DNA from: Faecalibacterium hattorii
GTDB lineage: Bacteria; Bacillota; Clostridia; Oscillospirales; Ruminococcaceae
Reading direction: 5' to 3'
Length of the DNA stretch: 64,000 nucleotides
NCBI RefSeq assembly: GCF_003287455.1
Contig: NZ_PRLC01000002.1
Location: 1 to 64,000, forward strand
Shown: positions 6,068-50,762 of the stretch, piece after piece
Numbering within the stretch: the stretch's first letter is position 1
Layout: each line of letters starts with the position of its first letter
Notes under the pieces: generated by a model
What the model saw: the letters and a program-made list of their open reading frames with translations, nothing else
What the model was told of the DNA's origin: nothing
Database searches by the model: none
Position numbers and translations under genes: made by a program

Positions 6068-6365
6068 AACGCCCCCTGCCAAAATAAATTTGGCAGAGGG
6101 CGAGAAAAAATCGCGGTACCACCTCTGTTTGCCGCCTCCTCACGGAAACGGCCTCACGAGTGCATGCCCCAGAGTAGGACGACACTCCTGCGTTTGTAAC
6201 GCTCGCACGCGGCACGGCCTACTAGAGAAAACTTCTCATTCAGCTTGCAGCTCCGGGAGGTATTTCCCCCGTTGCTCTGCACGCCCCTTTCACCAACCGG
6301 GGCCTCTCTGGGCAGAGCGCTTCAGGGTACTTGTTCCCTTCTTCGCCTTTCAACGAAAGCCAGTT
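6068..6365 (-). promoter_or_regulatory. T-box leader, tyrosine-specific
   Basis: Untranslated tyrS leader on the minus strand. The conserved T-box sequence AGGTGGTACCGCG lies at about 6124-6111. It is followed by a strong terminator hairpin (6101-6068) with arms CCCTCTGCCAAA and TTTGGCAGGGG plus a U-run. In the stem I region, GAAATACCTCCC places a TAC Tyr codon at 6262-6260 as the likely specifier. Uncharged tRNA-Tyr would pair with the specifier and with the T-box bulge to favour antitermination. Outer limits are approximate. Confidence 0.9.
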
Positions 6366-47996: not shown

Positions 47997-49511
47997 TCAA
48001 CCGTTGATGATATTCGGGGTGGCGTTCTTCAGCACAACGTCGTGGCTGCCGCCCTCGACAATGGAGGTGGAGGAAACGACGGTGAGCTTTGCCTTCTGCT
48101 GCAGTTCGGGGATGGACAGTGCGCCGCAGTTGCACATGGTGCTCTTGACCTTGTACAGGGTGGTCTGGACACCGTCGGACAGGGGGCCGGCGTAAGGAAC
48201 ATAGCTGTCCACGCCTTCCTCGAAGCTCAGCTTGGTGGAGCCGCCGAGGTCATACCGCTGCCAGTTGCGGGCGCGGTTGGAGCCCTCGCCCCAATACTCC
48301 TTCATATACTGGCCGTTGATGCGGACCTTGTTCGTGGGGCTCTCGTCGAAGCGGGCAAAGTAGCGGCCCAGCATAACGAAATCCGCGCCCATGGCCAGCG
48401 CGAGGGTGATGTGATAATCGTGGACGATGCCGCCGTCGGAGCAGATGGGCACATAGATGCCGGTCTCCTTGAAGTACTCGTCACGAGCCTTGGCGACCTC
48501 GATGACAGCGGTGGCCTGACCACGGCCGATGCCCTTGGTCTCGCGGGTGATGCAGATGGAACCGCCGCCGATGCCGATCTTCACGAAGTCTGCGCCAGCC
48601 TTGGCAAGGAAGCGGAAGCCCTCAGCATCCACGACATTGCCCGCGCCGACCTTCACGGTGTCGCCGTAGTTCTCGCGGATCCAGCCGATCGTGCGGCTCT
48701 GCCACTCGGAATAGCCCTCGGAAGAGTCGATGCAGAGGACGTCCACACCGGCATCCACCAGTGCGGGCACACGCTGGGCATAGTCACGGGTGTTGATGCC
48801 CGCGCCGACGACGTAGCTCTTATTCTTGTCCAGCAGCTCGTTGATGTTCTTCTTGTGGGAATCGTAGTCCTTGCGGAAAACGAAGTACTTCAGGTTGCCC
48901 TCGGCGTCCACCAGCGGCAGGGTGTTGATCTTGTTGTCCCAGATGATGTTGTTGCAGTCATGCAGGGAGGTGTTTTCCGGTGCGGTGACCAGCTTCTCGA
49001 TGGGGGTCATGAAGGTGGTGACAGGAGCATCATCCGGGGTGTGGTTGACGCGGTAATCGCGGGAGGCCACGATACCCAGCAGCTTGCCGCCCGGGGTGCC
49101 GTCGGCGGTAACAGCGATGGTGGAGTGGCCGGTGCGGGCCTTCAGCTCCAGCACGTCGTGCAGGGTGGCAGTGGGGGCCAGATTGGAGTCGGAAACGACA
49201 TAACCGGCCTTGTAGCTCTTCACGCGGCGGACCATGGCGGCCTCGTTCTCGATGCTCTGAGAACCGTAAATAAAGGAAACGCCGCCCTCACGAGCCAGTG
49301 CGATGGCCAGCTTATCGCCGGAGACCGACTGCATGATGGCGCTGATCATGGGGATGTTCATTTCCAGCGGGCACTCTTCCTCACCCTTGCGGTACTTGAC
49401 CAACGGGGTCTTCAGACTGACGGCCGTAGGAATATTCTCTGCGGAGGAATACCCCGGAACCAGCAGATATTCGCCAAAGGTGCGGGAAGGTTCTTCATAG
49501 AAATAAGCCAT
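47997..49511 (-). CDS. guaB: Inosine-5'-monophosphate dehydrogenase
   Basis: Oxidises IMP to XMP, committing purines to GTP. The 504-residue protein has a TIM barrel with an inserted CBS pair (about residues 100-225). The catalytic Cys loop is [16 protein letters not shown] (about 315) instead of the usual GPGSICTTR, and the flap region [18 protein letters not shown] precedes it. The C-terminal NAD/flap part has [20 protein letters not shown]. The unusual Gly/Ile replacements mark a divergent subfamily. The ATG at 49511 follows AAAGGAG. Confidence 0.93.
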
Positions 49512-49605
49512 ACTCAAACTCCTTTTCTCTCGTGCAGCCCGTCAAAACGGCGGCAAATTCATTTCACCTAATGTGCTTGGAACATGCTTAAAATTGCTTG
49601 CACTT

Positions 49606-49633
49606 ATTGTAACACAAACCGGCACAAACGCAA
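49606..49633 (-). promoter_or_regulatory. Promoter of guaB
   Basis: Minus-strand -35 TTGCGT (49633-49628), 16-bp spacer, -10 TACAAT (49611-49606). It gives guaB its own start, separate from the RNA upstream. The 49634-49763 stretch shows no gene or clear element. Confidence 0.55.
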
Positions 49634-49763
49634 GCATTTTGCAAAACAAACTTTCCAAATGACTCCTCGCGAAAACCAGACACTTTGTCTAAGAAAATGA
49701 CGGAAAGTAACACTTTATTCCCGAAATCTGCTTTTTTTGCTCTCACCGCAGCCCCGGAGGTGC

Positions 49764-49789
49764 AAAAAAGCCCGCCCCGAAGGGCGAGC
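49764..49789 (-). terminator. Terminator of the unassigned RNA
   Basis: Minus-strand stem GCTCGCCC / GGGGCGGGC with a UUC loop followed by TTTTTT. Confidence 0.8.
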
Positions 49790-49940
49790 TTTTCTGCACA
49801 CGAAGCGAGGATACCGCCTGTGCGGTGCGCGGCCAGCAGCTGCGAAGGAGTACAGCCGGAGGAGGATGGGCGGCGCACCCGATATCCACGGATAACAAGA
49901 AGAAAAAGATTTCACTCAGAAGCGTCTTACCGCTTTCTGT
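49764..49940 (-). ncRNA. Structured RNA, about 177 nt, unassigned
   Basis: Minus-strand unit with promoter (-35 TTGCAA 49975-49970, 17 bp, -10 TACAAT 49952-49947) and a Rho-independent terminator at 49789-49764. A 5' hairpin CAGAAAGCG / CGCTTCTG is followed by a long imperfect helix in which GGATA pairs with TATCC and GGGTGCG with CGCACC. No coding frame of quality exists on this strand. It could be a 6S-like or other regulatory RNA, or a guaB leader with attenuator; the separate guaB promoter argues for a stand-alone RNA. Confidence 0.6.
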
Positions 49941-49946
49941 AACCAT

Positions 49947-49975
49947 ATTGTAACTCTTTTGAAACCATTTTGCAA
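49947..49975 (-). promoter_or_regulatory. Promoter of the unassigned RNA
   Basis: Minus-strand -35 TTGCAA, 17-bp spacer, -10 TACAAT. Confidence 0.6.
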
Positions 49976-50018
49976 GAGTTTTTGCAAAGAAAATTGTAAA
50001 TCTTTTGTAATTCTTTTT

Positions 50019-50762
50019 TCAGACCTTTTGTGCCCCTTCGTCGGCAAACTCCAGATAGCATTCAAATGCCATGTGCTCCTCGCGGCGGCCCACCACATAC
50101 CAGCCATCCGCCGACGGGGCATAGGACACCACCACCTCGGCCCCCATGGGGATCTCGCGGTGGTATTTGATGGAGGCGAAGCGCAGAGGGCCTTTGCGGA
50201 GCACTTCCAGCGGCAGCGCGTCGCACGCGATGTCCAGATAGCAGGAGTTGTTTACATGGCCGTTCAGGTCGCACAGAGAATAGTGGGCCGTCCAATTGCC
50301 CGCAAAGGTCAAGTCCCTCGTTTTGTGCACGAGCTGAGGCAGCTCCCCTTCCAACGTATCATTCTCGTAGTTGGGGGTGCACCAACTGGGCTGGCGCAGG
50401 ATGCGCTCCGTCTCGGTATCCACCACGATCCAGCGGCAGTCCACCATGGCAAGCTCACGGCCCGCCTCGTCCCGCAGATGGGTGATCCGCTTCATGGAGC
50501 CTTTTTTGCAGGGTTCACAGGCCGTATCCAGCGTGACCTTTTCGCCACGGGTGGGCATCCGGTAGATCTCCACCGCCTGTTTGCCCACCAGAAAGGCTGT
50601 GTGGCGGGCGGCAAAAAAAGCGTCGTCCATGCCATAGGCGCGGGCGTGATCCGCTGCCGCCTGTTCCACGTAGCGGAACAGGGCGCTGGGCTTGAGCATC
50701 CGGCGGAAGTCGCCGTCCGCATTCAGAACGGTGAAGGTCTCGGTGAAGTGATTCAGTTCCAT
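50019..50762 (-). CDS. Acyl-ACP thioesterase
   Basis: A 247-residue FatA/FatB-type thioesterase (double hotdog fold) releasing fatty acids from ACP. The catalytic Asn-His segment is DLNGHVNNSCYLDIA (about 185-199) and the first hotdog has VEQAAADHARAYGMDD. The ATG at 50762 follows AAGGAATG; the frame to 50876 is leader. In anaerobic Firmicutes such enzymes supply short or medium-chain acids, but chain length is not readable here. Confidence 0.88.
   Translation of the reverse strand: MELNHFTETFTVLNADGDFRRMLKPSALFRYVEQAAADHARAYGMDDAFFAARHTAFLVGKQAVEIYRMPTRGEKVTLDTACEPCKKGSMKRITHLRDEAGRELAMVDCRWIVVDTETERILRQPSWCTPNYENDTLEGELPQLVHKTRDLTFAGNWTAHYSLCDLNGHVNNSCYLDIACDALPLEVLRKGPLRFASIKYHREIPMGAEVVVSYAPSADGWYVVGRREEHMAFECYLEFADEGAQKV

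Follow-up and report, generated by a model that had tools for sequence, protein, structure and literature searches.

A stand-alone small RNA gene of family RF02994 beside guaB in Faecalibacterium, with loops complementary to ribosome-binding sites

Introduction

In the window analysed here (positions 1 to 64,000 of contig NZ_PRLC01000002.1 of Faecalibacterium hattorii), the minus strand between an acyl-ACP thioesterase gene (50019–50762; Pfam PF01643 and PF20791) and guaB, the IMP dehydrogenase gene next downstream (47997–49511; NCBIfam NF005493), contains a strongly structured stretch, which raises the question of whether it is a gene of its own or a leader of guaB, and what its RNA may do. 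An initial annotation had left the choice between a small RNA gene of 6S-like size and a novel guanine-pathway leader. Faecalibacterium and related bacteria are commensals that abound in the gut; for none of them did a search of the open-licence literature turn up a paper on a small RNA and its role.

Gene architecture and identity

The minus strand from about 49940 to 49764 is well supported as a stand-alone small RNA gene, made up of a promoter, a covarying fold and an intrinsic terminator. The promoter TTGCAA-17-TACAAT lies where it had been annotated (49975–49947, minus strand, as for all parts of the gene given below), with the −35 hexamer TTGCAA at 49970–49975 and the −10 hexamer TACAAT at 49947–49952, both identified by a promoter scan and by the same-genus loci: TTACAAT is present in 30/30 of these, and 29 of them have TTGCAA at the −35, L029 alone having TTGCTT. 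Promoter-like sites number 2 in the 1.6-kb stretch, against 0.6 ± 0.8 in shuffled sequences. With its start placed by this promoter, the presumed transcript would be ~177 nt long (49764–49940), and its end is formed by the annotated terminator, AAAAGCUCGCCCUUCGGGGCGGGCUUUUUU (49793–49764), which has a run of six T and is seen both in the fold and by covariation. A consensus terminator scan did not list this terminator on the minus strand, probably because the stem runs into the U-tract. By eye, the stem in the window (49797–49756) and in the aligned loci extends beyond the U-tract, as UGCA...UGCA in many loci and as UACA...UGUA in L017, L027 and L029; this covarying extension is more than RNA termination alone requires. 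The annotation had seen nothing coding on this strand; three ORFs of 66–96 aa do cross it and, judged by alignment indels only, none of them looks conserved, because many of these indels are not multiples of three.

The covariance search against Rfam that the annotation had proposed assigns the element to RF02994, “IMPDH RNA” (Rfam type: Gene; sRNA). The match (49783–49893) covers model positions 1–108 of 108 at 110.5 bits, above the cut-off of 95.4, and therefore the family of the window RNA is already known and the element is not novel, though the model appears to cover only one branch of the family (see below). At E up to 10 the region has other Rfam matches, none of which comes near its cut-off. 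No function was found attached to RF02994 in the Rfam entry or in the open-licence literature, and no paper on “IMPDH RNA” or RF02994 was found in the latter; the source paper of the family is reportedly Weinberg et al. 2017. Elsewhere in the window, a T-box leader (RF00230) matches at 6093–6352 on the minus strand with 109 bits.

Conserved fold

The 177-nt RNA, terminator included, folds at −72.7 kcal/mol, in comparison with −58.3 ± 3.9 kcal/mol for shuffled sequences (z −3.7, 0/200 as low), in agreement with the strong pairing noted before. Its core is formed by two helices: an outer helix between GGATATCG (49880–49887) and CGGTATCC (49816–49809), and an inner helix between GGTGC (49875–49879) and GCACC (49828–49824), with a 7-nt bulge, GCACAGG (49817–49823), between the two on the 3′ side. 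These enclose an internal loop, in which the anti-Shine-Dalgarno motif UCCUCCUCC (49858–49866) is unpaired, and an apical hairpin (49838–49857), whose loop ACUCCUUC (49851–49844) is a second anti-Shine-Dalgarno motif (CUCCUUC). The annotated pairings of the long helix are real and covary, but the 5′ hairpin (49917–49939) of the same annotation, which folds in the window by single-sequence prediction, is variable and lies outside the consensus fold.

Alignment of relatives, also proposed at the outset, does reveal compensatory changes. Covariation in 30 aligned loci (29 distinct sequences) supports the outer helix, the inner helix, the apical hairpin and the terminator, which have two-sided changes in 7/8, 4/5, 2/5 and 9/14 of their pairs, respectively, so that the consensus fold of RF02994 is retained in the window RNA and its relatives. 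In the consensus prediction from the 30 loci, two-sided changes occur in 26 of the 40 predicted pairs. For the four elements together, with five pseudoknot pairs that show no covariation counted in, the figure is 22/37, and 97.4% of the cells are paired; shuffling lowers this share to 90.4%, and sliding to 51.7% or less. The pseudoknot itself, GCACA (49823–49819) with UGUGC (49800–49796), was dropped: 86.9% of its cells pair, it has zero two-sided changes, and shuffles do equally well (94/500). Conservation in the 30 aligned loci peaks in the unpaired parts: the single-stranded pyrimidine stretch GAAAUCUUUUUCUUCUUG near the 5′ end (49896–49913), UCCUCCUCC of the internal loop, UUCUCCUUC of the apical loop, and CUUCGUGUGCAAAA ahead of the terminator, where the window has the conserved CUUCGUGUGCA (49795–49805).

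Extent of the family

RF02994 is found in 30/31 Faecalibacterium genomes, with one copy in each, including 22/22 of the genomes that are at least 90% complete, and it lies above the cut-off in 25/31. Across 297 genomes of the host's taxonomic family there are six matches, of which five are from the same genus (the window's own included) and one was judged to be due to chance; the reach of the Rfam model is essentially Faecalibacterium only. A model built from the 30 Faecalibacterium sequences (R1) matches a locus of another genus (L039, on the contig of L124) at 49.3 bits (E 6e-11), seven further loci at 34–45 bits, and the Ruthenibacterium-type loci and L155 at 17–24 bits; it has no match for the short Gemmiger forms L067 and L147, nor for L119 and L110. 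Eight of the 23 out-of-genus loci (L039–L061) were read, and apart from the homologue L039 these are seven apparently terminator-driven matches (L040–L046); a weak match from the search of the taxonomic family (L031, 27.7 bits) lies, by eye, inside apparent coding sequence. At ~1450–1600 in the match orientation, L043–L046, from four genomes of a single other genus (g50), have TTGACATATTAAGAAAAATGGGTATACTAAAG, ~70 nt of CU-rich sequence and a strong terminator in common, and this looks like another small RNA gene. The L119 stretch, from a Ruthenibacterium MAG, contains a glmS ribozyme (RF00234; 1227–1437, 53.4 bits).

A pattern scan of 85,000 genomes for the promoter followed by CTTTTTC (GTTACAATNNNGTTRCAN{10,40}CTTTTTC) gave 95 stretches: 49 with guaB, the thioesterase or a PotD-like gene, which form the syntenic set, and 46 non-syntenic ones. 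A UCCUCC-type motif, which is absent from the search pattern (YCCTCC, at most 110 nt on), is present in 49/49 syntenic versus 4/46 non-syntenic loci, and a −35 with at least 4/6 matches at the right place in 48/49 versus 7/46. One of the four non-syntenic loci with YCCTCC (L085) is plainly a family member. Another of the four, from Oscillospiraceae (L137), has CUUUUUCAU, UUUUCCUCC and a terminator; it is a possible, more distant member and was left out of the counts.

Loci of the non-Faecalibacterium type come from Gemmiger, Fournierella, Ruthenibacterium, Subdoligranulum, unplaced Clostridia and Oscillospiraceae, and also from three MAGs labelled Faecalibacterium (L073, L121 and L124). Promoter, neighbourhood and UCCUCC-type motif are common to the homologues of Gemmiger, Fournierella, Ruthenibacterium and others, and none of 18 loci of this type is reached by Rfam sRNA families. 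The folds of two of them (L124 and L144) follow the plan of the window RNA: an outer helix, a 7-nt 3′ bulge, an inner helix, a 5′ loop of ~10 nt with UCCUCC, and an apical hairpin; their helix sequences differ from those of the window, and they reach only modest z-scores (−2.1 and −1.0). By these likenesses, the window RNA appears to be part of a wider gut-bacterial family, of which RF02994 would cover one branch.

Relation to guaB

The window RNA is not supported as a leader of guaB, of which it is independent because it has a promoter and a terminator of its own. The position implied by the name of RF02994, upstream of an IMPDH gene, holds in the window, in 28/30 Faecalibacterium loci, with guaB within 1.5 kb downstream (the exceptions are L024 and L026), and in 35 of the 50 loci of the wider family, with guaB on the same strand at most 750 nt away. 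Elsewhere in the 50, guaB is found on the same strand at more than 1.5 kb (6 loci) or on the other strand (3), or is absent from the 3.5–7.6 kb downstream (4); the remaining 2 have too little flanking DNA, and one of these (L143) shares its contig with L010, which does have guaB downstream. Other locus names overlap likewise: L068 is on the contig of L026, L129 on that of L024, and L124 on that of L039. An ORF of more than 330 aa intervenes between the RNA and the distant guaB in three of the 6 loci (those read). Both Faecalibacterium exceptions keep the whole RNA gene, followed in L026 by the Trp-repressor-like yerC/yecD (Pfam PF01371, TIGR02531) and in L024 by a gene that is Trp-repressor-like by sequence. 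In L126, the order of the thioesterase gene and guaB is unchanged, and the RNA gene is inverted between them; L126, L091 and L121, in which either the RNA gene is turned round where it stands or guaB is convergent, are natural tests of independence from guaB. An aromatic-acid-exporter-like gene lies between the RNA and guaB in L080 and L144 (PF06081, L080 piece).

Of the marks of a cis-acting guaB leader, neither a constant leader position nor a terminator/antiterminator switch is found. In the 30 loci, the 5′ arm of the terminator has no consistent antiterminator partner: the best upstream partner beats at least 36/40 shuffles in 6/30 loci only, at scattered places. A purine riboswitch has no match in the window at the gathering threshold, nor in 49500–50100 at E up to 10. 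The separate guaB promoter proposed by the initial annotation is plausible as a candidate, TTGCGT-16-TACAAT, with a −10 that begins at −97 (to within one base) relative to the ATG, but it lies below the 9-of-12 threshold of the promoter scan, and a −10-like hexamer precedes guaB in 10/28 loci only.

Promoter repeats

Two direct repeats accompany the promoter of the RNA on the minus strand: TTACA-N6-TTACA upstream (49995–50011; on the plus strand, TGTAAATCTTTTGTAAT), which may be a response-regulator box, and GTTACAATATGGTTACA (49938–49954), which overlaps the −10 and the start site. The TTACA half-sites at −10/+1 are 11 bp apart in 29/30 Faecalibacterium loci, and the pair upstream of the −35, 10–12 bp apart, is present in 30/30 of these and, among loci of the other type, in 11 of the 27 that could be read. 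With respect to its position in 23 of the 30, the upstream pair lies 11 bp further out in the window and in L020, and 10 bp further out in L008. The non-Faecalibacterium type has a third half-site 22 bp on in 22/28 loci, the second half-site there belonging to the search pattern.

On the opposite strand, the two window repeats are both exact fits to the WalR (YycF) consensus, given as TGTWAH-N5-TGTWAH in PMC9210968. The likeness of the RNA promoter to WalR boxes ends with these two exact matches: the consensus is hardly enriched genome-wide (17 matches versus 11 in the control), and therefore a match to it names no regulator, and none of the ORFs next to the other consensus sites, read by eye, has a cell-wall theme. 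WalR is thus not singled out as the regulator.

Complementarity to translation starts

In all 28 homologues of the non-Faecalibacterium type, CUUUUUCAU is found ahead of the UCCUCC-type motif, and the two jointly complement a ribosome-binding site and AUG AAA AAG. The AT right after CTTTTTC, which completes a CAT and is absent from the search pattern, is present in 28/28 of these loci versus 0/22 of the Faecalibacterium type. The window genome lacks the anti-start motif, with CUU in place of CAU; a divergent Faecalibacterium locus (L030) has the CAU, as CTTTTTCAT. The shortest form (L067, ~85 nt) contains little beyond CACUUUUUCAUGUGUUCUUCUCCUCCUUUC and the terminator; reverse-complemented, CACUUUUUCAUGUGUUCUUCUCCUCCUUUC gives GAAAGGAGGAGAAGAACACAUGAAAAAGUG, a translation start of the textbook kind.

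No near-full target was found: a 24-nt complement with at most 3 mismatches, sought in 11 genomes, returns only the RNA gene itself in 11/11. Complements of the 5′ stretch show no enrichment in five Faecalibacterium genomes (31, 34, 27, 30 and 28, versus 31, 30, 20, 32 and 28 in controls). The start pattern GGAGGN{4,11}ATGAAAAAG occurs 10, 15, 7 and 12 times in the window's genome (G000), G778, G788 and G789, versus 1, 2, 1 and 0 times in controls, the counts for G778 and G788 each including the RNA gene itself. Among 28 such genes that were read, 12 have, by eye, a lipoprotein-like signal at their start, and 10/10 of those given to Pfam are extracellular solute-binding proteins, a result that is partly built in because exported proteins often begin with AUG AAA AAG.

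Pairing energies with start regions and with coding stretches were compared on the basis of crude gene calls. In 15 Gemmiger-type loci, the start-codon part, CACUUUUUCAUGUG, pairs better with 108 start regions than with 324 stretches of coding sequence, and 1/50 shuffles is as good; the corresponding values are 3/50 for UCCUCCUCC of the window, 25/50 for its apical loop and 24/50 for UUCUUCUCCUCCUUUC of the Gemmiger-type loci. Most of the anti-Shine-Dalgarno pairing effect is explained by CU-rich composition. Hfq (PF17209) has no match in the window's genome, the one genome searched, and the positive controls were detected.

Discussion

We give a probability of roughly 60% to the reading that the window RNA is a stand-alone, trans-acting small RNA of ~177 nt, similar to csRNAs and LhrC, that masks translation starts without Hfq. 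Its fold keeps the CU-rich anti-Shine-Dalgarno motif of the internal loop open, and the second one in the apical loop, and the RNA would base-pair with the ribosome-binding sites of target mRNAs, where ribosomes could then not start. In the neighbouring genera, the 5′ part adds CUUUUUCAU, the complement of AUG AAA AAG, which makes the RNA complementary to a whole translation start (Shine-Dalgarno sequence, start codon and two lysine codons) of the kind that opens many solute-binding lipoproteins. Transcription of the RNA may be controlled by a response regulator through the 11-bp direct repeats.

The conserved pyrimidine loops might bind an RNA-binding protein and not mRNA, with the RNA serving as a sponge or scaffold; the stronger conservation of unpaired than of paired parts and the lack of enriched 5′-stretch complements in Faecalibacterium would suit such a role. 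We consider it unlikely, however: the complements of start codon and Shine-Dalgarno sequence co-occur in 28/28 homologues, which is what an anti-start RNA needs and which a protein site would not require, and there is no known partner, Hfq not being found in this genome. Improbable, too, is a riboswitch or attenuator that gates transcription into guaB by purine. The closeness of guaB in 35/50 loci, the terminator at the end of the RNA and the Rfam name all point that way, but the loci in which guaB is distant, absent or on the other strand, the flipped RNA gene of L126, the scattered partners of the terminator arm and the promoter-like site that the window guaB has past the terminator argue against it. 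As guaB is not the constant downstream gene, the guanine-pathway leader of the initial annotation is not supported; its small RNA gene is borne out by the RNA's own promoter and terminator, by the covarying fold and by its existence apart from guaB in other species.

The likeness to 6S RNA that the same annotation drew stands as to size, and a long interrupted helix would also fit an RNA that binds RNA polymerase. The region, however, has no match to the 6S covariance model (RF00013) at E up to 10, and the genome's 6S RNA lies on another contig (G000:C54:65584-65788, 63.2 bits), which leaves this reading a next to negligible chance. Very improbable as well is that the structure arises, without function, as a by-product of intergenic repeats and a strong terminator that acts in both directions: the terminator can act on both strands because its stem is long and A/T-flanked, yet promoter, loops and covarying helices are conserved across the whole RNA in 30/31 genomes, and there are homologues in other genera.

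Start-site masking by the window RNA can be extended, tentatively and at rather less than even odds, to the family as a whole. RF02994 would then be a branch of Hfq-independent anti-start small RNAs of the Faecalibacterium-Gemmiger-Fournierella-Ruthenibacterium group, whose ancestral form complements GGAGG-spacer-AUG AAA AAG and which would repress secreted solute-binding lipoproteins as a class; a response regulator would read the TTACA repeats flanking the −35, and the whole would be a nutrient-uptake switch in major gut commensals, with a role like that of GcvB or LhrC, to which it would be unrelated. If true, an orphan Rfam family gains a testable mechanism, its name describes only the neighbour, and a family several genera wide offers a clean case of anti-start-site action in bacteria where Hfq was not found. 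The RF02994 family was already known; the separation from guaB, the wider family and the anti-start complementarity are added here.

Comparison with known small RNAs

Compared with the window RNA, the RF02994 model stops short of the terminator's end and lacks the 5′ part, and it misses 18 loci of the other type. Start-site masking itself is known from csRNAs and LhrC (PMC3091779, PMC4132741). The csRNAs of Streptococcus have an unpaired anti-Shine-Dalgarno and anti-AUG sequence, depend on CiaR through a direct repeat of 11-bp period at the promoter, and end in a terminator (PMC3091779). The window RNA resembles them in its unpaired anti-Shine-Dalgarno motif, the 11-bp-period promoter repeat and the terminator, and its homologues in related genera also in the anti-AUG. 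It differs in the repeat itself (TTACA-N6-TTACA in place of the CiaR repeat TTTAAG-N5-TTTAAG), in its single copy, seen in 30 genomes and in 11 genomes, where csRNAs have several per genome, in its clade and bulged two-helix core, and, in the window form, in having no CAU.

LhrC of Listeria is described as multicopy (five), Hfq-binding and LisR-controlled, with UCCC motifs in loop, linker and terminator (PMC4132741). Unlike LhrC as described there, the window RNA is single-copy, its CU-rich motifs are of another sequence, and its genome has no Hfq match. Both have several CU-rich sites, redundant with one another, in a single-stranded part as well as in a loop, and the terminator loop of some homologues of the window RNA contains, by eye, UCCC; a further parallel with LhrC, which we propose for the window RNA, would be control by a two-component system.
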